The notes under the pieces are model-generated. The model was given only the letters and a program-made list of their open reading frames with translations. It had not been told where the DNA came from and did not search any database. Shown here one piece after another: positions 3,599-46,257 of a stretch of 46,257 bases of DNA. The position numbers and the translations under genes were made by a program. This DNA is from a virus. The stretch spans positions 1-46,257 of the IMG/VR virus record IMGVR_UViG_3300015264_000011. The stretch is one strand, 5' to 3'. Position 1 is the stretch's first letter. Every line of letters starts with the position of its first letter.

Positions 3599-6500
3599 CT
3601 ATAATCACCGCGATTATTCTTTGCCATTTGCGTTAGTAATTGACGAATTTCTGTTTGACCTTGAGCCTGATAAGGACCAGTTCCAGTAACACCTAAACCG
3701 GTAAGCCAATTAATTAGTTGCTCTGGATTATAAGGTTCGTTATTTCGAGAATTACCAGATAATCTCTCACCTAAACCAATGGCAGGAAATGCTTGCTGAG
3801 CTACATACCCAGAAGCGCCTCCTTGTACATTCTCTAAAGGAATTCCAAGAGGGGTTTGTCCAGTTAATAATGAAATAGGAATACTCGCCACAGGGCTCAA
3901 ACCACTTAATAGCGTCTGTTGAGGATTGCCAATTTGCTGTAACTGATCTAAGAAAGGTGTACTAGGATTAACAATAGTGTCTCCTGGAGCATGTCCTCTC
4001 CAGTCATCTTGTCTACCAAGTCCACTTTCAGGACCTAAAATAGGACCAATTCCTTTTTCTTTAAGCCAATCAGGAAACATCTGATCAACGGGGAAGGGAT
4101 TACCAGGTCCCTGAGATTCAATTCCAGTTGCGTACTGAATGTCTGCCATAGCTTTAGGAAACGCTAATGTAATATGAGGTCGCATAACTGCACCTTCAAT
4201 TACCAGCGGTGTGGCTTTTCTCATCCAAGAATAAAAAGGAATTATTCTACGAAGTACATTTTGTTCGAATCCTGTGAGGTCCATTCCGTCTGGGTGAAAT
4301 TTCTTGACTCTTCTTGCAGCCTGTTCAACAGCTGTACTAAGGGGTCCTTTGGATTTAGAAAGAATGTCTGCAAAATGGGCAAGTCTAACCCAATGTTCTC
4401 TAAGTTCGGAAGTTCTGGTTGCGGCATCATATACCTTACCGTTAAAGGGCTTAAATTTAGATCCAAAAGTTCCAAACGCAGGAGATCCGCCTCCTGTCAA
4501 ATCCTCGATAGAGACCGCCCTGGGGAACAATCCTCGACTCTCAGCAGCCTGGTAAAGCATCTCAGCGGTCATTTTCTCACCACTACGTGTAGTCAGCACG
4601 ACATTGCCAGGACGAGCCCTTAATGCAGCCTCTCTGAGTTTCGGGTCCATAATTTTAAAAACAGATTCAAGATCTTTATATCTCGTTGGGAAAGCGTGGA
4701 GAACCTTAGTAGCAATAGCATAAGGACGGGGACTAGTAACTCCATCAAGAGCAGCAAGATAAATGTCGCCATTTAAATTCCTAATATGATGAGAAGGAGA
4801 GTAGATAGTAACTCCGGTTTTCCACATTCTCTGTACTTTATCAAATAGTTCAATAGCCTTATGAGGAGTCTTGAAGACATCACGATCCAATTGATTCTTG
4901 AGGTTATTAAGCTGAGTAGCAATCTGCTGAGGAAAATGTGTTCCTTTTAAACGAGGAATAGCACTAGCTTCATGCTGATATTCTGCTCCCTTTAAAGGCA
5001 TTCCCCAACGTGCAGCAGCATCATCCCACATAGCATTCTTACGTGTAACTAGCTGTAAAGATCTAGTTAATTGATAAAGGGATTCAGCAGGTTCAGTTGT
5101 TTTCCACTCTTTCCAAGAATCCATCCAATTACCTTTACTGTAATCGAATGTTCTACCCAGTTCATCTGCACCCTTCTTATCAATAAATTGTAGAGCTTTT
5201 GGAAGCTCATCATTTAATTCCTTTAAAACAGTTCCACTTCTCAGAACGACAGCTTCTGCATTATCTGTAATTCCATGAGTTCCCATTAAACTTTCAATAA
5301 TATACTTAAAACGATCTGCTAATTGCTGCTCTGCTGGTGATCCTGCTATAGCTTTACCTTGAGCTACAGACCATGCAATTTTACGTTGACTAACAGTTGT
5401 TGCCTCTACTAGTGGTTTCATAGTTTCACTGAAGGCAGCAGCAACATTTCTAGCTGTATCAATGTATTCACGAGAGAAAGGTTTGAGATCTTTAGCACCC
5501 CACCAAGTTGCAAATTTAGTCATGATACCTTCAACAACTTTACTCTGTTCTAATTGCCTACCCAGAATTTTGGGATTAGATCCTAGAGCTTTGTAAGTCT
5601 CTTCAGAAATGTGCTGCAAAGTTGTAGGATTAGTAACTCCAGTAGCAGACTGTCGAACAAGATTACGTGCTTCCTGCTGTACAGTACTGTATAATTTATC
5701 ACGTACAGGATTAAACATGTCATCAATAAACTGCTTAGCCATTCCAGATTCTCTACTGGAAGCACCAGCCTGCTCAGCAATCTTTCTTAATGCTTTAGAA
5801 ATCTCACTACCAACCATTACTGTTTGACTAGGAGGTAACTGTGCAAGCATTGGAGCAAGTTCTTTACCTGTTTGAATCACAGGATCAAGAATCTGACTCG
5901 CAACCTGTGGCGTGGTAAAAGCTTTCAAATTTTCAATTCCTTGAGAGGGACGAGCCCGACGAAAATCATCAACTAATTTAGAATTAAGAGCTTTAGGACC
6001 ACCAAGCATATTAGCTACATCACTTAATCTAACACTAATACCTTCAGCATCAGTCAGATGTCTACCAGATTTTAAAACTTCTTCTTCAGCAATTCTAAGC
6101 ATTTGAAGAACGTGGAAAGGTCTACGATCTTTACGTACTTTACTAGCAGCGTGTAGAACCCTATTGTATAAATTAGTTTGTCCTACGTGATTAATATCTT
6201 TCATTCGTGTAGTTTTTAAGAAACTCTGAGCTGCTTCCTTAGCAGAGTTAATCCAACGTTGTCCGATAGTTAAAGCAGGGAATAACGGGGGAGTAGTTCT
6301 AGCTTCACTTAGAATGTCAGCAGGTCTAACCCCTGCTTTAAGTTTTTCTACTTGACCTCTAAGAATGTTCTTGGCCACAGGGCTCTTAACGGATTCAATC
6401 TGTGCATTCAATTCTTTAATACTAGCAAGAGCTTCAGTTTCAGGTTTAACAGCTGTGGGTAGTGCTTTCATTGGAACACTTTGTCGAATGTCCAAAGGTA

Positions 6501-31766: not shown

Positions 31767-31812
31767 TTCCGTCTATCTCATAGGGAAACCGAACCTTAAG
31801 GGATAGACGGAA
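31767..31812 (+). other. Hairpin directly upstream of tRNA
   Basis: TTCCGTCTATC (31767-31777) pairs perfectly with GATAGACGGAA (31802-31812), with a 24-base loop. Three bases later the tRNA begins. It may guide tRNA processing or reduce read-through. Confidence 0.6.
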
Positions 31813-31815
31813 CCT

Positions 31816-31885
31816 GGGAGTGTAGCTCAATTGGTAGAGCAGCATTTAGGATATGTTGATTTGGGTTCGAATCCCAGCATTCCCT
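31816..31885 (+). tRNA. Atypical tRNA, best-fold anticodon AGG (Pro)
   Basis: A perfect or wobble 7-bp acceptor (GGGAGTG with CATTCCC), D-arm GCTC/GAGC with GGTA in the loop, and T-arm TTGGG-TTCGAAT-CCCAG are present. Between D- and T-arms only 20 bases remain, two or three fewer than normal. The only pairing gives loop TTAGGAT (anticodon AGG) with no base 26 and a three-base variable region. Isotype is uncertain and G1-C72 is not the usual Pro end. No CCA is encoded. Length 70. Confidence 0.65.
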
Positions 31886-31918
31886 CGTGAATTTAAGTAA
31901 CTAATGAAAGGAAAGCGC

Positions 31919-32218
31919 ATGTCACTCCGAGATGATCTATTGGCAGAGCAAGCAGAGGTTAATCGCAAATTGGCCATTCTCAATAGTGCACCATCTGATA
32001 CTTACAACCTTGGAACAGTTGTAGTTTTTGCCTCGGGTGCTGGTGGTGTAAATAAGTGGCACTATGTAAAAGTAAACGAAGAAACTTGGAAGGATTTTCA
32101 GTCTAACGGAACTAAATCATTAGCTGAATGGATTCTCTTTATTACTGATTTAAACGTGGGCTATTTTGAGGTATACGTTCTTACTGTAGCTCCTGCACCT
32201 ATTTATGCATCAGCATGA
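31919..32218 (+). CDS. Hypothetical 99-aa protein
   Basis: ATG 31919 is favoured over 31904 because of AAAGGAAAG upstream. N-terminal short coiled coil (DLLAEQAEVNRKLAIL), then beta strands (VVVFASGAG, WHYVKVNEETWKDF). ATGA overlap with the next gene. Not recognised. Confidence 0.62.
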   Translation: MSLRDDLLAEQAEVNRKLAILNSAPSDTYNLGTVVVFASGAGGVNKWHYVKVNEETWKDFQSNGTKSLAEWILFITDLNVGYFEVYVLTVAPAPIYASA

Positions 32219-35610: not shown

Positions 35611-35638
35611 GGGCCCCTTATCTACAGGTAAGGGGCCC
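35611..35638 (+). terminator. Intrinsic terminator hairpin
   Basis: GGGCCCCTTA and TAAGGGGCCC pair over ten bases around an eight-base loop, followed by CTTTT. It should reduce transcription from the SNF2 gene block into the next block. Confidence 0.8.
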
Positions 35639-35686
35639 CAGGCTTTTGTGTGCCCGAAAAATCATCCGTCGCGGGGAGGGATGATC

Positions 35687-35884
35687 ATGAAACCACCTAA
35701 GCCTCCTAAGCTTAAACCAACTAGATTTGAGCGATTCTCTCGCTGTCTTGCATGTGATAAGTTTACTCCTGATAATAGAATATTTAAACACGAGGGCAGA
35801 TATTGGATTCTATGTAGAGTTGATTACGCAGATTACTGGGAAAATACGGATGAGTTATCGTCTGACTACAAGGGATATCTGTGA
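35687..35884 (+). CDS. Small Pro/Lys N-terminus protein with CxxC, 65 aa
   Basis: GGGGAGGG supports ATG 35687. Begins MKPPKPPKLKPTRF, then CLACDKF, HEGRYWILC and a Tyr/Asp-rich end. Probable zinc ribbon. The stop overlaps the next GTG. Confidence 0.6.
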   Translation: MKPPKPPKLKPTRFERFSRCLACDKFTPDNRIFKHEGRYWILCRVDYADYWENTDELSSDYKGYL

Positions 35885-38189: not shown

Positions 38190-38950
38190 CTACAATTCCT
38201 AAACCAACTGAAGCTGAATATCGACAAGAAGCTAATAAGTATGCAACTCTAAGTCCTTACTTTGTAACTGTTCTATACGGTGATCTAGGTAACTGTAAAA
38301 CAAGCACAGCTTGTTCTATGGTAGGTGAAAGGGGGCTGCTACTAACTTCTGATAATAGTTGGAAAGTTATGAAGAAACCTCGCCACAGTGCGGATTTTGC
38401 TAAGATTAAAGTTGTTCCTCTTCAAGGATTGGATCAATTTCCCTATCTAGACTTTACAGGTTACGACACTATTATTTGGGACACTCTCAGTCAGTCAATT
38501 GATGAATTCCTTGACCTGCTTTATGATGAGGCAGATTGGGGAGGTAAGTATCGAGATAAACTTACTACTAAAAATTCTACACTTAAAGCTATGAATATCG
38601 AAACTCTGGCACCCGTGGATTACCGAGTTACTCGGGATACCACCAGGCCAGTATTCAATAAACTATTTAAGGAGACTGAAGCTCACATTATTTTTACTTC
38701 TCAGTTTGTTGATCCTATTCCTGGACTTAGTGCTAACCAACAGAAGAGACCTTCTATTCCTCAGGCCACTTTTAAGATTGTTGGAACTAGGGCTGACATT
38801 ATTGCACATACTAAACTCAATGGCACTAAAGGTACTGCGGACGTAACCAATGGCTTAACCCAATTAGGTAAAAGCCGACTCGAAGGAATTCAGGGTTCAA
38901 TGGACCTTGATAAATTTGTAGCTAAGTATAAGGAGATTGTTTTCAAATGA
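38186..38950 (+). CDS. Sak4-like RecA-fold ATPase (single-strand annealing/recombinase group)
   Basis: 254 residues: VLYGDLGNCKTSTACSM (Walker A 32-40), GYDTIIWDTL (Walker B, Asp99) and a C-terminal part with FTSQFVDPIPG. This is the layout of phage AAA_24/Sak4 proteins that promote recombination with a partner SSB. The SSB-like gene follows directly by ATGA overlap, as in known Sak4-SSB pairs. Confidence 0.87.
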   Translation: MTTIPKPTEAEYRQEANKYATLSPYFVTVLYGDLGNCKTSTACSMVGERGLLLTSDNSWKVMKKPRHSADFAKIKVVPLQGLDQFPYLDFTGYDTIIWDTLSQSIDEFLDLLYDEADWGGKYRDKLTTKNSTLKAMNIETLAPVDYRVTRDTTRPVFNKLFKETEAHIIFTSQFVDPIPGLSANQQKRPSIPQATFKIVGTRADIIAHTKLNGTKGTADVTNGLTQLGKSRLEGIQGSMDLDKFVAKYKEIVFK

Positions 38951-39420
38951 GTATTTTTGGTAAGCTTGACGCTGCTGCTATTCCTACTAACCCTTACTAT
39001 ATTGAGAAGGGTGAGTATGAGGCTGAAGTTACTAAGGCACAGTACAAGATGAATCGGGACCAGCAGAAGCAGCTCCACATTGAATATACTATTACTGATG
39101 AAGGTTCGCAGTTCTTGGATTCTAAGGCTACTCAGTTCTTTACTCTTATTGATCCTGACATGGACAGTGAGGCTCTTGCACTTCTTCCCGTCGATGAGCA
39201 GAAGAGTATTCGACGTGCAATCTCTGGCCTTAAGCGGACTCTGTGTGGTAACGATAACAACACTTCACAAAAGGGTCTCGGCGTTGACATTGACGATTTG
39301 AACGATGAGAGCTGGAATCCCGAGGTTCTTGTAGGTACTAAGGTAAATATTGGCATCAGTAACTATGGTGCCAATAATGAAGGTGTTAATCTTAAGTGGG
39401 TTAATCTTCGTGAAGAGTAA
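38947..39420 (+). CDS. Single-stranded DNA-binding-like protein
   Basis: 157 residues: KGEYEAEVTKAQYKMNRDQQ, DSKATQFFTLIDPD, then VLVGTKVNIGISNYGANNEG and a short C-terminus ending in acidic residues. The pattern is that of the phage DUF2815/DUF669-type SSB partners that follow Sak4. Likely coats ssDNA during replication. The codons are rich in GCT/CTT forms and it looks well expressed. A 284-base leader with unusual RNA features follows. Confidence 0.78.
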   Translation: MSIFGKLDAAAIPTNPYYIEKGEYEAEVTKAQYKMNRDQQKQLHIEYTITDEGSQFLDSKATQFFTLIDPDMDSEALALLPVDEQKSIRRAISGLKRTLCGNDNNTSQKGLGVDIDDLNDESWNPEVLVGTKVNIGISNYGANNEGVNLKWVNLREE

Positions 39421-39434
39421 ATAGTACAAGGTCC

Positions 39435-39468
39435 GGGTACCTATCTTATTGCCGTGAGGTAGGTACCC
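39435..39468 (+). terminator. Hairpin after SSB-like gene, possible terminator
   Basis: GGGTACCTA (39435-39443) pairs with TAGGTACCC (39460-39468) around a 16-base loop. Only CCTCC follows, so it may be a processing or attenuation hairpin rather than a strict terminator. It sits four bases before a tRNA-like fold, as the hairpin at 31767-31812 sits before a tRNA. Confidence 0.55.
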
Positions 39469-39472
39469 CCTC

Positions 39473-39542
39473 CGGGATGTCCGTAAAGAAAGCTGCGCAG
39501 TTTCTGGACGGATTTGGTAGAGTTCGAGTCTCTCCATCCCGA
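39473..39542 (+). ncRNA. tRNA-like structure or degenerate tRNA
   Basis: A perfect seven-base acceptor-type stem (CGGGATG with CATCCCG) and a T-arm with four pairs and loop TTCGAGT end in a free A. A D-arm CGTA/TGCG is possible, but no good anticodon stem exists. Instead TCCGT/ACGGA and AGAAA/TTTCT make one long central hairpin. Length 70, no CCA. It may be a decayed tRNA (Pro-like C1-G72) or a functional tRNA mimic. Confidence 0.55.
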
Positions 39543-39568
39543 CGTATATAATTATGAGGAGGCCCATC

Positions 39569-39577
39569 ATGGTCTAA
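39569..39577 (+). other. Two-codon minigene ATG GTC TAA
   Basis: GAGGAGG (39556-39562) precedes ATG by six bases, an excellent ribosome binding site for a frame of only two codons. The upstream frame from 39554 ends at the same stop. See also the second minigene at 39621. Phage lambda bar minigenes (ATG ATA TAA) are the known precedent. Confidence 0.45.
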
Positions 39578-39620
39578 TTTAATAATATAATTGCTAGTAT
39601 ACGAGTCACTTGGAGGCAGT

Positions 39621-39629
39621 ATGATGTAA
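39621..39629 (+). other. Two-codon minigene ATG ATG TAA
   Basis: GGAGG (39612-39616) is four bases before the first ATG and seven before the second; the stop follows at once. It lies 52 bases after the first minigene in the same leader. Confidence 0.45.
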
Positions 39630-39658
39630 ATTAAAGGAAGCCTGAGACTGTCTGCACG

Positions 39659-39688
39659 GGAGCCTACTTATGAAGCTAGGTAGGCTCC
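39659..39688 (+). promoter_or_regulatory. Hairpin before the primase-helicase ribosome binding site
   Basis: GGAGCCTAC pairs perfectly with GTAGGCTCC around a 12-base loop, only five bases before GAAGGGAGG of the next gene. It could act in attenuation or translation control. Confidence 0.55.
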
Positions 39689-39704
39689 ACTCGAAGGGAG
39701 GTTC

Positions 39705-41402
39705 ATGACAAATGAATTTTTGAATGACCTCTTCGAAGGTCAAGAAGGAATAGTATATGCTCCTGTAAAAGGAGAAAGATGGGAGCAGCATTTTTTTAAT
39801 TGGCCACAGGAGCGCAACAAGTTAGAAAGACATTTAAATGACTTTGACAAACGAGATGTGTATATATCACCAGTCTTGTTCAGTAGTAAAAAAGTTGAAT
39901 CTACAACATTCAAAGGTACTAGCTGGCTCTGGACAGAGTTTGATGGTACAGTCCCTACAAATGCCATTAAGCCTACGATGCGAGTCATGTCCTCTCAAGC
40001 AGGTCATGAACATTGGTACTGGAAACTAGATTCTTTTATAACTGATAAAGCTATTCTTGAAGATTTAACTCGAAGGATTGCGTATTACTATGGAGCAGAC
40101 TTATCTGTTTGGGATTATCAGAATGTACTACGGCCAGTTGATACTTGGAACCACAAACGAAATAAACCTGTCACTCTCTTGGATCGTAATGACACCTTAT
40201 ATAGCATCTCTGATTTTCTTGGGATTCCTATTCCTCCCGCTGGTTCCCGCGTTGACATTTCGCTCGGAGTTCTACCTAGCAAAGATCAAATCTTAGCTAA
40301 GTACCGATTCACGATTGACGCGTTGGATCTCCTGTTCAAAGAAGTTCCACAGGGTAAGAGATCTGATGCGCTAGTCAGACTAGGCTATGAATGCGTAGAA
40401 TGTGGGTTAAGTAATGAAGAAACCTATGTCCTCTTGGAAGACAGAGATACAGCCTGGGGAAAGTTTGTTGGAAGAAACGATAGAGATAAACAACTCCAAG
40501 GAATTATTGCCTCTGTCAGAAGAAGAAAAGCAACAACTACTGAAATTGTTCACGGAACACCTGAAGTTTATAGATTCCATGATTTCATGCGAACCAATGT
40601 CAATCTCAAATGGGCTATTGAAGGATTATTGCCTGTGGCAGGGTCGATGGTTATATTTGGAAAACCAGGAATTGGCAAGAGCACCTTCTCCCTTAGATTA
40701 GCTATTGACTTAGCTCTTGGAAAGGATAAATTCTTACTCTGGAATATTGTAAATAGGCAACGAGTAATGTTCATATCCCTTGAAATGCAACACTACGAAC
40801 TCAAAGAGTTCTTTAAAGATATGGAGTTGTCTGATGAGCTACAGACAAAACTTCAGGAACAGCTATTTATCTGGCCCATCGGAGCAGCCTACCCTTTCGA
40901 TACTCCTGATCAACAATCTGAAGTGCTCAAATATATCAAACTGCATAATATTGAACTCATTATTATCGATTCCCTTAGTCTGTCCATGTATGGTTCGGTT
41001 ACCAATGATGACGACATCAAAAGACTTAACTCTTTTCTCAATGAAGACATCCGAAGAGACAACGGCTGTGGATATATATTCATCCATCATCCGCGTAAAG
41101 AAGGAATTGAAAAACTTAAGGTACTTACCTTAGATGACGGATTCGGTTCACAGTATATCGGAGCTAATGCACAGACGGTGATTGCTCTTGAACAAAAGAA
41201 AGGATCAACACATCTACACGTAAGATTCTTAAAAACACGTATGGCTAAAGTAATGCAAGATTTTGATATCGTTCGTACTTCGGACAGGGGGTTTGAACTT
41301 GTCGGTAGTCAACTCTCCATTAACGCCCCTGTCACTGAAGGGGACGGAACTACCAACGAAAAGCCAGCAGATGGCTCACTTGGAAAATTGTTTGGGCTTT
41401 AA
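39705..41402 (+). CDS. Primase-helicase (AEP-like primase + RecA-fold helicase)
   Basis: 565 residues. N-terminal domain (1-180) has features of archaeal-eukaryotic-type primases: WLWTEFDG (Glu78, Asp80), SSQAGHEHWYWKL, and NVLRPVDTWNHKRNKPVTLL. The C-terminal half has VIFGKPGIGKSTFSL (Walker A 319-327), ELIIIDSLSLS (Walker B ending near 422) and a conserved IFIHHPRKEG stretch as in RepA/DnaB-like ATPases. It should open the fork and make primers. Start is ATG after AAGGGAGG. Overlaps the exonuclease gene by 32 bases. Confidence 0.82.
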   Translation: MTNEFLNDLFEGQEGIVYAPVKGERWEQHFFNWPQERNKLERHLNDFDKRDVYISPVLFSSKKVESTTFKGTSWLWTEFDGTVPTNAIKPTMRVMSSQAGHEHWYWKLDSFITDKAILEDLTRRIAYYYGADLSVWDYQNVLRPVDTWNHKRNKPVTLLDRNDTLYSISDFLGIPIPPAGSRVDISLGVLPSKDQILAKYRFTIDALDLLFKEVPQGKRSDALVRLGYECVECGLSNEETYVLLEDRDTAWGKFVGRNDRDKQLQGIIASVRRRKATTTEIVHGTPEVYRFHDFMRTNVNLKWAIEGLLPVAGSMVIFGKPGIGKSTFSLRLAIDLALGKDKFLLWNIVNRQRVMFISLEMQHYELKEFFKDMELSDELQTKLQEQLFIWPIGAAYPFDTPDQQSEVLKYIKLHNIELIIIDSLSLSMYGSVTNDDDIKRLNSFLNEDIRRDNGCGYIFIHHPRKEGIEKLKVLTLDDGFGSQYIGANAQTVIALEQKKGSTHLHVRFLKTRMAKVMQDFDIVRTSDRGFELVGSQLSINAPVTEGDGTTNEKPADGSLGKLFGL

Positions 41403-41892
41403 ATACTTAGCTGTAGATACGGAAGGTTATGCACCTAACATCTTGGGCATCTCTATTGCTCATCCTGCTTTGGATTCAATGTATTTTCCTGTTGGGCACA
41501 AGGAAAATTGCAATGTCGATGCAGAGACAAATGAATTTATTCAACATGTCCTTCGGACAGTTCCTTTTCGCGTGTTTCATAATGCTGGTCATGACCTCAT
41601 TGCCCTCCCTTATCTTTTTGATCTGCCTTTTGTCTGCACTATGATTCTAGGCCACATGATCGATGAGAATGTGATGTCTAAAGGTCTTGATTATATGCAC
41701 AAATTTTACTGTGGAGGAGGTGGTAAAGAGCAAGATCCAGTTATGACTTCTATTATAAAGACAATGGGGTGGGAATACGTACCTTATGCACTAATGTACA
41801 ACTATGCAACTGTCGATGCAAAAATTACGATGGAGTTATTTCTAGAGCTACTGCCCAAGTATGAAGAACAGTTTGGTCCTCTTTGGAGTTAA
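41371..41892 (+). CDS. Stand-alone 3'-5' exonuclease (DEDD, DnaQ/Pol I type)
   Basis: 173 residues: YLAVDTEGY (Exo I, Asp and Glu), VFHNAGHDLIALP (Exo II, Asn and Asp), and YNYATVDAKIT (Exo III, Tyr and Asp), the complete DEDDy set. In family A polymerases this domain is fused upstream of the polymerase domain; here the polymerase is a separate gene starting at 46029, 4.1 kb downstream. It presumably proofreads in trans. I chose ATG 41371 over a longer frame to 41263 that lies wholly inside the helicase gene. Confidence 0.85.
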   Translation: MAHLENCLGFKYLAVDTEGYAPNILGISIAHPALDSMYFPVGHKENCNVDAETNEFIQHVLRTVPFRVFHNAGHDLIALPYLFDLPFVCTMILGHMIDENVMSKGLDYMHKFYCGGGGKEQDPVMTSIIKTMGWEYVPYALMYNYATVDAKITMELFLELLPKYEEQFGPLWS

Positions 41893-43392: not shown

Positions 43393-43688
43393 CTATCTCC
43401 AAGTTGGATACCTTTCTGAACGTTAAGAATAAAGAAGATAAAGAACCTGCTTTAAGAGTTGGAGTTAGCACAGCCGGTGTGGCTGGTGTTCTAGCTTTAG
43501 TTTCTTATTTATTTCCTCATCTTTTAAATGAACGTCAGACTGCTCTTATTTTTGTAATTAGTGCTTTTGCCCTTCCCATTATTACTGCTATTTTTACGAG
43601 AGGTAAAGTTTGGTCTGTTGCTAGTGTTGAAGAAGTTATTGAAGAAGCTGTACAAGATGCATTAGCCACAAGGGGCAAAAATGAGTGA
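43389..43688 (+). CDS. Holin
   Basis: 99 residues with two hydrophobic helices (about 25-46 and 52-71) joined by LLNERQT, charged N-terminus and an acidic Glu/Asp-rich C-terminus. Size, topology and position directly after the lysin are typical of a class II holin. Overlaps the next gene by eight bases. Confidence 0.82.
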   Translation: MTISKLDTFLNVKNKEDKEPALRVGVSTAGVAGVLALVSYLFPHLLNERQTALIFVISAFALPIITAIFTRGKVWSVASVEEVIEEAVQDALATRGKNE

Positions 43689-44168: not shown

Positions 44169-44195
44169 GGGATCTGGCTCAAGTAGTCAGATCCC
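44169..44195 (+). terminator. Hairpin after lysis cassette
   Basis: GGGATCTG (44169-44176) pairs with CAGATCCC (44188-44195) around an 11-base loop, followed by CCTTAAAA. A moderate terminator; T-run is poor. Confidence 0.6.
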
Positions 44196-44218
44196 CCTTA
44201 AAAGGAGGTTATAGGGGA

Positions 44219-44652: not shown

Positions 44653-44857
44653 AATGAAGGTAATTTGGAAATACGGAGATGGATTAAATAGTACCGTGAA
44701 ACACGCCTTTTTCGCTGAAAGTAGAACTTCAGCTATTTGTGGTGAAAGTCCTGTTTGGTATGGAGGAAAATGGAATAATGATAAGGTAGAATTAAAGAGG
44801 CGTCGTTCTTGTAAGAAATGTGTACGAATTATTAAAGTGGAAAACTCAACTTTGTGA
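44645..44857 (+). CDS. Hypothetical 70-aa protein with CxxC
   Basis: Starts at GTG 44645 (or ATG 44654). VIWKYGDGLNSTVKHAFFAE and SCKKCVRIIK at the C-terminus; a pattern like small 'HYT/KYxDG...CG' actinophage proteins of unknown function. Followed by a 170-base non-coding gap. Confidence 0.6.
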   Translation: MSKMKVIWKYGDGLNSTVKHAFFAESRTSAICGESPVWYGGKWNNDKVELKRRRSCKKCVRIIKVENSTL

Positions 44858-44860
44858 CTT

Positions 44861-44980
44861 ATGAGGCGACCTAGTCCTCATCTGGCGTCCATGATCACCT
44901 CAGGTAGCCTGCCAGGATCAACGCTACGGACCTAACGGGGGTCAACCCATACCTCTGTGAGGGTACCTAGTGGATCATGG
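44861..44980 (+). ncRNA. Candidate multi-branched structured RNA
   Basis: A first hairpin ATGAGG/CCTCAT (44861-44881) is followed by an eight-base closing helix CCATGATC (44889-44896) with GATCATGG (44973-44980). Inside are CAGG-TAG-CCTG (44901-44911), GACC/GGTC (44929-44943) and CCTC-TGT-GAGG (44952-44962). The domain is GC-richer than the surroundings and has no open frame. Confidence 0.5.
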
Positions 44981-45030
44981 CTTAGATTCGGTCGATATGT
45001 CAAGATTGTGAATTAGAAAAAGGAGGATTG

Positions 45031-45893: not shown

Positions 45894-46063
45894 TGCATAA
45901 ATGTAGAGTATTTAAATCCGGCGGTGATCCTGGATATCCTTGGTGGACCTGGTGCTACAAATGCAGATTTAATAGATCACATGGTACACATGAAGAGGCT
46001 CTATTAAACGCATGCTGGCATAGATTGTATGGATGTGATGACTCAGACTTTATGGGAAACTGA
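45893..46063 (+). CDS. Small Trp/Cys/His-rich protein overlapping DNA polymerase
   Basis: 56 residues with GYPWWTWCYKCRFNRSHGTH, two Cys pairs and several His, like small actinobacteriophage zinc proteins. GAGGGAG upstream of the ATG and TAATG coupling. Its last 35 bases overlap the polymerase start in another frame. Confidence 0.65.
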   Translation: MHKCRVFKSGGDPGYPWWTWCYKCRFNRSHGTHEEALLNACWHRLYGCDDSDFMGN

Positions 46064-46257
46064 AGCTGATTTTATTCGATTAATGGCAAGAATTAAAGAA
46101 CGTGGTATTAAAGTTGATACAGTATTTTCTAGGAAAAAGGCTATTGAAGGAACAAAGATACTTAATCAAATTCAAGGGGAACTGGGATGGAATCCTGGAA
46201 GTCCCCAGCAAATCGGAAAGTATCTTATTGATGATCTCGGTTTACCAGTGGTTAAGA
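46029..46257 (+). CDS. DNA polymerase, family A (N-terminal part; continues at position 1)
   Basis: The frame from ATG 46029 runs to the window end and, across the 77-base overlap, continues at 1-1045 without a stop. I chose 46029 because the preceding in-frame stop is at 46005; ATG 46038 is an alternative. No clear Shine-Dalgarno is present, so coupling to the overlapping upstream gene is likely. This part holds the N-terminal helix TLWETEADFIRLMARIKERG and the GWNPGSPQQIGKYL segment, the family A 'NxxSPxQLxxLL' helix. Confidence 0.9.
   Translation, partial: MDVMTQTLWETEADFIRLMARIKERGIKVDTVFSRKKAIEGTKILNQIQGELGWNPGSPQQIGKYLIDDLGLPVVK
46181..46257. repeat. Terminal direct repeat, right copy
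   Basis: Identical to 1-77; marks the closure point of the genome. Confidence 0.97.

Follow-up and report, generated by a model that had tools for sequence, protein, structure and literature searches.

What is the function of the 284 nt that separate two neighbouring genes of a phage replication operon? The stretch of DNA analysed here (the window, 46,257 nucleotides) comes from an uncultured phage whose record looks complete, since its ends repeat each other and a DNA polymerase gene spans both of them. The gap in question, positions 39421-39704, is flanked by an SSB-like gene, itself preceded by a Sak4-like ATPase gene, and by a primase-helicase gene. Annotated phages with a related primase infect Arthrobacter, Microbacterium and Gordonia, all with less than 60% identity; the window shares the order ATPase, SSB-like, primase-helicase and DNA polymerase with annotated phages, among them ctEqG8 and Jasmine. 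In these two, the annotated gap ahead of the primase measures 94 and 45 nt, compared with 284 nt in the window, and it contains one large hairpin 3' of the SSB-like gene; a single large hairpin in this place is also found in several distant relatives. DNA polymerase I is encoded in two genes in the window, an exonuclease (41263-41892) and a polymerase (46044-46256, continuing at 2-1021), which lie some 4 kb apart with other genes in between. Two separated matches are also seen in phages G001, G002 and G008, and one continuous match in G009-G011.

Anatomy of the leader

An initial, sequence-only reading had described the gap as 284 bases holding two hairpins, a tRNA-like structure and two minigenes, and had interpreted it as an attenuator. 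The flanking genes and the parts of the leader are as follows.

38947-39420, plus strand: SSB-like gene upstream of the leader (ORF call; weak DUF669 similarity, best E 0.0057, in relatives)
39435-39468, plus strand: hairpin H1, 15 bp with a 4-nt loop, z -5.2
39473-39541, plus strand: tRNA-like fold, acceptor/T half, with comparable folds at the same place in relatives L006 and L035
39558-39577, plus strand: minigene 1, SD GGAGG at 39558-39562 and ATG GTC TAA at 39569-39577 (Met-Val-stop)
39612-39629, plus strand: minigene 2, SD GGAGG at 39612-39616 and ATG ATG TAA at 39621-39629 (Met-Met-stop)
39659-39688, plus strand: hairpin H2, 12 bp, z -3.5, part of a hairpin-7nt-SD cassette with equivalents in relatives
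39696-39704, plus strand: primase SD GGGAGG (39696-39701) and spacer, the SD starting 7 nt after H2
39705-41402, plus strand: primase-helicase gene (phrog_3123, E 5.5e-76; DNA primase/helicase families; AAA_25)

The extent of the gap, the hairpin at its start and the second hairpin just before the primase's own ribosome binding site were thus all read correctly. Taken together, the 284 nt of the leader have a better fold than each of 200 shuffles (z -3.35). In the predicted fold, H1 pairs with probabilities of 0.85-1.0 in context. The middle stretch (39540-39660) is without special structure (z +0.5). The foot of H2 lies at about -17 from the primase start codon, where the mRNA leaves the ribosome. 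The primase SD is predicted to pair with early coding sequence and to be unpaired with a probability of about 0.25, a partial concealment that sets the window apart from most relatives in the predicted folds. H2 does not pair with the primase SD in the predicted fold, and the predicted accessibility of the SD does not change when the 5' arm of H2 is taken away (0.24 versus 0.23). There is no terminator-like site in 38900-39900, and a promoter search of the leader returned nothing convincing. DNA similarity revealed no match to the leader among annotated phages, and tRNAs were the sole Rfam hits above threshold in the window, the leader and the relatives.

The tRNA-like fold comprises a perfect acceptor stem of 7 bp (39473-39479/39535-39541) and a T-stem of 4 pairs (39519-39522/39530-39533) with a canonical TTCGAGT loop; a long middle arm (39480-39512) replaces the anticodon arm, and neither a D-arm nor a CCA is encoded. 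A 7-bp acceptor stacked on a canonical-loop T-arm makes this a tRNA-like structure by its architecture; in shuffled sequence this combination turns up about 3 times in 1.2 Mb. By folding energy alone the tRNA-like fold does not stand out (z -1.7). When the 284 nt are folded alone the tRNA-like part lies outside the minimum-energy structure, and it becomes probable once 56 nt of the gene are added. Neither ARAGORN nor Rfam, even at E = 10, calls a tRNA at 39473-39541; neither scores the stretch as tmRNA, and the T-box model of Rfam finds no match even at E = 10. The 70-base tRNA-like structure of the initial reading is real in its acceptor/T half, and falls short in the missing D-arm and in the absence of a tRNA call by either program. 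Both tmRNA and the tRNA-like structures of plant viruses keep the acceptor and T-arm, have no D-arm and carry a long helix in place of the anticodon arm. The fold in the window shares all of these features; it differs from them, and from tRNA punctuation, in lying inside an mRNA leader.

The two two-codon frames with strong ribosome binding sites are also borne out, at least two such GGAGG minigenes occurring in a dinucleotide-shuffled leader with P = 0.0005. The part of the leader that bears them is AU-rich (38% GC, with 53-54% on either side), and the stop codon of minigene 2 lies 29 nt 5' of H2, beyond the ribosome footprint. In anatomy this is the arrangement of a stabilising leader minigene, for which an ORF of 2-6 codons follows a strong SD and the surrounding leader is AU-rich. 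Minigenes of 2 to 6 codons with a strong SD have been reported to raise expression in the LEE4, LEE1 (ler) and axe-txe leaders, and mRNA protection has been proposed for them (PMC8708949). The window likewise has short strong-SD ORFs in an AU-rich leader before a larger gene; the likeness is anatomical only, and the window differs in that the operon is a phage replication operon, that hairpins and the tRNA-like fold flank the minigenes, and that the phage leaders studied here hold one or two minigenes each.

Recurrence in related phages

Relatives were obtained from scans of IMG/VR. Six have a primase that is 62-71% identical (L002, L003, L004, L021, L007 and L006, of which L006 is a fragment; L005 is a duplicate of L004), the identity is near 50% in two further IMG/VR relatives, and no primase relatives were found in bacterial genomes. 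The leader sequence does not align with those of the relatives, and blastn finds the window itself alone; despite this, parts of the leader recur. Conservation in relatives, on which the attenuator proposal had been staked, thus holds for the layout of minigenes and cassettes and fails for the sequence. The comparison supports a functional leader of the primase gene, because related phages have this architecture in the same position despite their different sequences. A layout that is rebuilt from different sequences points to what would be a real control or RNA-protecting element, and not to a tRNA-sensing switch.

Six leaders, including that of the window, hold 6 SD-minigenes (strict SDs, 2-5 codons) where 0.25 are expected, a count reached by none of 1000 shuffles. 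The minigene of L007 is Met-Val-stop, as is minigene 1 of the window; elsewhere the peptides are MINL (L004), MYITH together with a TTG-started minigene (L003), MRELW (L021) and, with a weaker SD, MGGK (L002). Their position is constant, between the structured part and the next hairpin or gene. The peptides are mostly unrelated across relatives, and no regulatory codon is conserved among MV, MM, MGGK, LIANS, MYITH, MINL and MRELW. To our knowledge, little is known about conserved minigenes in phage leaders; here the layout is conserved while the peptides change, so that a role of ribosome occupancy is directly testable. A small gene of 64-92 aa lies between minigene and primase in L002 (2810-3004), L004 (2733-3011) and L007 (2758-2976); its proteins are apparently related, and the gene is missing from the window, L003 and L021.

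The hairpin-7nt-SD cassette consists of a perfect 10-15 bp stem that starts with GG (GA in one case) and ends with CC (TC in one case), followed by AGGAGG or similar. Besides H2, the window contains a second one:

44169-44208, plus strand: hairpin-7nt-SD cassette preceding a small gene, hairpin at 44169-44195

This downstream small-gene cassette is present in five phages, the window and four relatives. A cassette stands before the primase in the window, L003 and L021, before the small gene that precedes the primase in L002, L004 and L007, and before minigenes twice in L003 and once in L007. Every cassette is oriented with its gene, and up to three occur within one leader. All 14 cassettes have standard pairs at the outer ten positions, and similarly placed cassettes use different pair types. 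The linker measures 7-8 nt at 13 of the 14 sites (mostly 7, 8 in two, one other ambiguous), and in the distribution of linker lengths 11 sites form the peak at 7-8 nt, against a background of roughly one site in each bin. It is important to point out that the cassettes were found by a hairpin search; because pairing was thereby partly selected for and the linker was not, the fixed linker is stronger evidence than the pairing. The ESAS of cluster K mycobacteriophages are inverted repeats directly 5' of the SD-containing start region of several genes per phage (PMC3203893). The cassettes share with them an inverted repeat immediately 5' of the SD, at several genes. They differ in that the SAS sequence GGGATAGGAGCCC is absent (0 matches allowing up to 2 mismatches), that the arms vary from site to site, that the 7-nt linker is fixed and that up to three stand in one leader. 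The fixed 7-nt spacing between hairpin and SD makes this a simple, portable cassette for tests of translation or stability.

The place of H1 and the half-tRNA-like fold is taken by a structured RNA motif in relatives and by tRNA genes in more distant ones. The motif, element A, is a three-way junction of the form GGG-P1-(P2, often GGTAAT, P3)-P1'-GAGTGGGAG-n-GGTACCCCACA, and lies between the SSB-like stop codon and the first minigene in L002, L003, L004 and L021. Pattern scans placed it in six further, more distant phages; two viral scans also gave chance matches, and only matches with GGG and a complementary P1 were kept. The 12 instances found in all come from at least ten IMG/VR phages, and most of them follow an SSB-like gene. 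Element A was located at these positions:

L103 761-862
L057 3568-3654
L062 2378-2466
L063 12245-12335
L055 2455-2501
L056 9637-9703, minus strand
L059 5640-5704, minus strand
L060 867-933
L104 6392-6475
L098 333-419, minus strand
L082 11451-11530
L085 11542-11666

It directly follows the SSB-like gene in L055 and L104 and lies within about 200 nt of it in L059; in L098, tRNAs lie between the two. Across ten sequences every P1 and P4 cell is paired and five pairs change on both sides; the covariation score is matched by none of 500 shuffles, and slid controls collapse. A covariance model (R1) found two copies outside its building set (E 8.5e-6 and 1.6e-5), of which one immediately follows the SSB-like gene in G011. 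When the loci with the ten model sequences were scanned with Rfam, tRNA was the only family to match, and element A is a covarying motif absent from Rfam release 15. The window leader itself scores 2.9 bits at best against R1 (E 0.25, filters off), compared with 47-75 bits for the building sequences; H1 and the tRNA-like fold occupy the place of element A. The motif was found in none of six annotated phages with related primases, blastn against phage records gave chance matches only, and the single match to its core pattern in bacterial genomes, on a contig of Akkermansia, has neither GGG nor P1 beside it. We discarded a peptide-coding role for element A (V-V-P-H-I), since its loop lengths are not multiples of three and its stem covaries. 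Phage HK022 has, in put, a short structure formed by the nascent RNA of an early operon. Element A shares this description; it differs in its mid-operon position and in its absence from the window. A new RNA motif in the relatives is the more surprising by-product of this analysis.

Half-tRNA-like folds stand directly 5' of the primase in the window, L006 and L035, each with the acceptor/T half kept and the D and anticodon arms lost. The tRNA-like stem of L006 ends 7 nt before the primase SD, where other phages place a hairpin. The element of L035 (253-372) is 120 nt long; its acceptor and T-arm are perfect, its middle measures 90 nt, and it sits between tRNA-Lys and the primase. Most close relatives have no tRNA-like part and carry the other RNA motif there instead. 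True tRNA genes in or near the slot belong to more distant relatives: L028 has a tRNA-Gln gene in it, L034/G008 has tRNA genes right after the SSB-like gene, and G011 shows the order SSB-like, element A, hairpin, tRNA-Leu, tRNA-Ile, SD, gene.

Candidate roles of the leader

From this anatomy we infer, tentatively and with somewhat less than an even chance of being right, a modular 5' leader of the primase cistron that serves processing, protection and independent translation. Protection and processing are favoured because of the AU-rich minigenes, the published precedents, the position of the H2 foot at about -17 and the slot filled with tRNAs. Stable folds would set the primase message apart from that of the SSB-like gene, and a candidate cut by RNase P or RNase Z at the tRNA-like fold could add to that separation. 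The AU-rich stretch would be shielded by 30S subunits and ribosomes that load repeatedly on the minigenes, which would slow degradation by RNases, such that minigene occupancy would protect the AU-rich 5' end of the primase message. H2, at the mRNA exit of the ribosome, would leave no single-stranded landing pad upstream of a bound ribosome and may keep the primase SD free of upstream pairing. Translation of the primase would then be stable and set on its own, probably at a modest level, with no particular tRNA being sensed. Counting against this modular leader are the lack of a D-arm and an encoded CCA, the exclusion of the tRNA-like part from the minimum-energy structure of the 284 nt, and the partly hidden SD. 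A bolder version, in which functionally interchangeable slot RNAs (element A, the D-armless tRNA-like fold, tRNA genes) combine with minigenes and cassettes into a new kind of modular leader controlling the processing and stability of replication messages, is on the unlikely side.

An attenuator, in which minigene translation or the level of a tRNA switches alternative hairpins to control primase transcription or translation, is suggested by the co-occurrence of hairpins, minigenes and a tRNA-like fold 5' of a key gene, by the partly paired SD and by a CCTCC after H1 that could pair with GGAGG. We nevertheless consider it improbable. Sensing of tRNA or ribosome state is unsupported because there is no terminator-like site, no conserved regulatory codon among the minigenes, and too great a distance from the minigenes to H2 (29 nt from the last stop); in addition, the SD is predicted to be equally accessible without the 5' arm of H2, most close relatives do not conserve the tRNA-like part, and Rfam gives no T-box match. 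Somewhat more probable is tRNA punctuation, whereby the slot is an insertion site for tRNA genes, a decayed or unusual tRNA survives solely because RNase P/Z can split the operon at it, and the minigenes are incidental. The tRNA genes in or beside the slot in L028, L035, L034 and G011 fit this, as does the retention of the acceptor/T half alone in the window, L006 and L035; the strong enrichment of minigenes speaks against it, Rfam does not score the fold as a tRNA and cleavage is only putative, and overall we regard it as doubtful.

The minigenes of lambda bar have two codons, a strong SD and a UAA stop. Those of the window agree in all three respects and differ in their second codons, in their place in a primase leader and in a length that varies among relatives. 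They might act in trans, peptidyl-tRNA drop-off hampering host translation, and their features are those reported as most toxic, yet an axe-txe minigene with the same features is not toxic (PMC8708949). As relatives also use four- and five-codon minigenes, and their constant position ahead of the primase points to a role in cis, toxicity is the least probable of the explanations considered. The hairpins could also act at the DNA level, as parts of a replication origin or as protein-binding sites, in keeping with the neighbouring replication genes and with the large hairpins that distant relatives also have downstream of the SSB-like gene; this is very improbable given the fixed 7-nt spacing to the SD and the presence of cassettes at other genes, which argue for RNA, and given that all cassettes are oriented with their genes.

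Like elements elsewhere in the window

The claim that nothing similar precedes the other replication genes is true of the core replication genes only. Elsewhere in the window like elements do occur, namely the cassette at 44169-44208 and a second composite leader:

31767-31884, plus strand: hairpin 31767-31812, CCT, tRNA-like/tRNA-Pro 31816-31884, SD

A gene near 31904-31919 follows it. Its counterparts in relatives (G001 5226-5320, G002 718-785, G003 43556-43644) score as tRNA in Rfam and have hypervariable anticodon arms, among them a 33-nt loop, a 2-nt 'anticodon' and a very long stem; because these arms are so variable, several of the counterparts can hardly decode. Two other stretches of the window may be mentioned. 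The intergenic positions 44857-45027 are strongly folded (MFE -53 kcal/mol over 171 nt) and have no match in relatives. At 35611-35690, a hairpin and about 55 conserved nt precede a small gene, a candidate further leader that is 70-82% identical in five relatives despite being non-coding.
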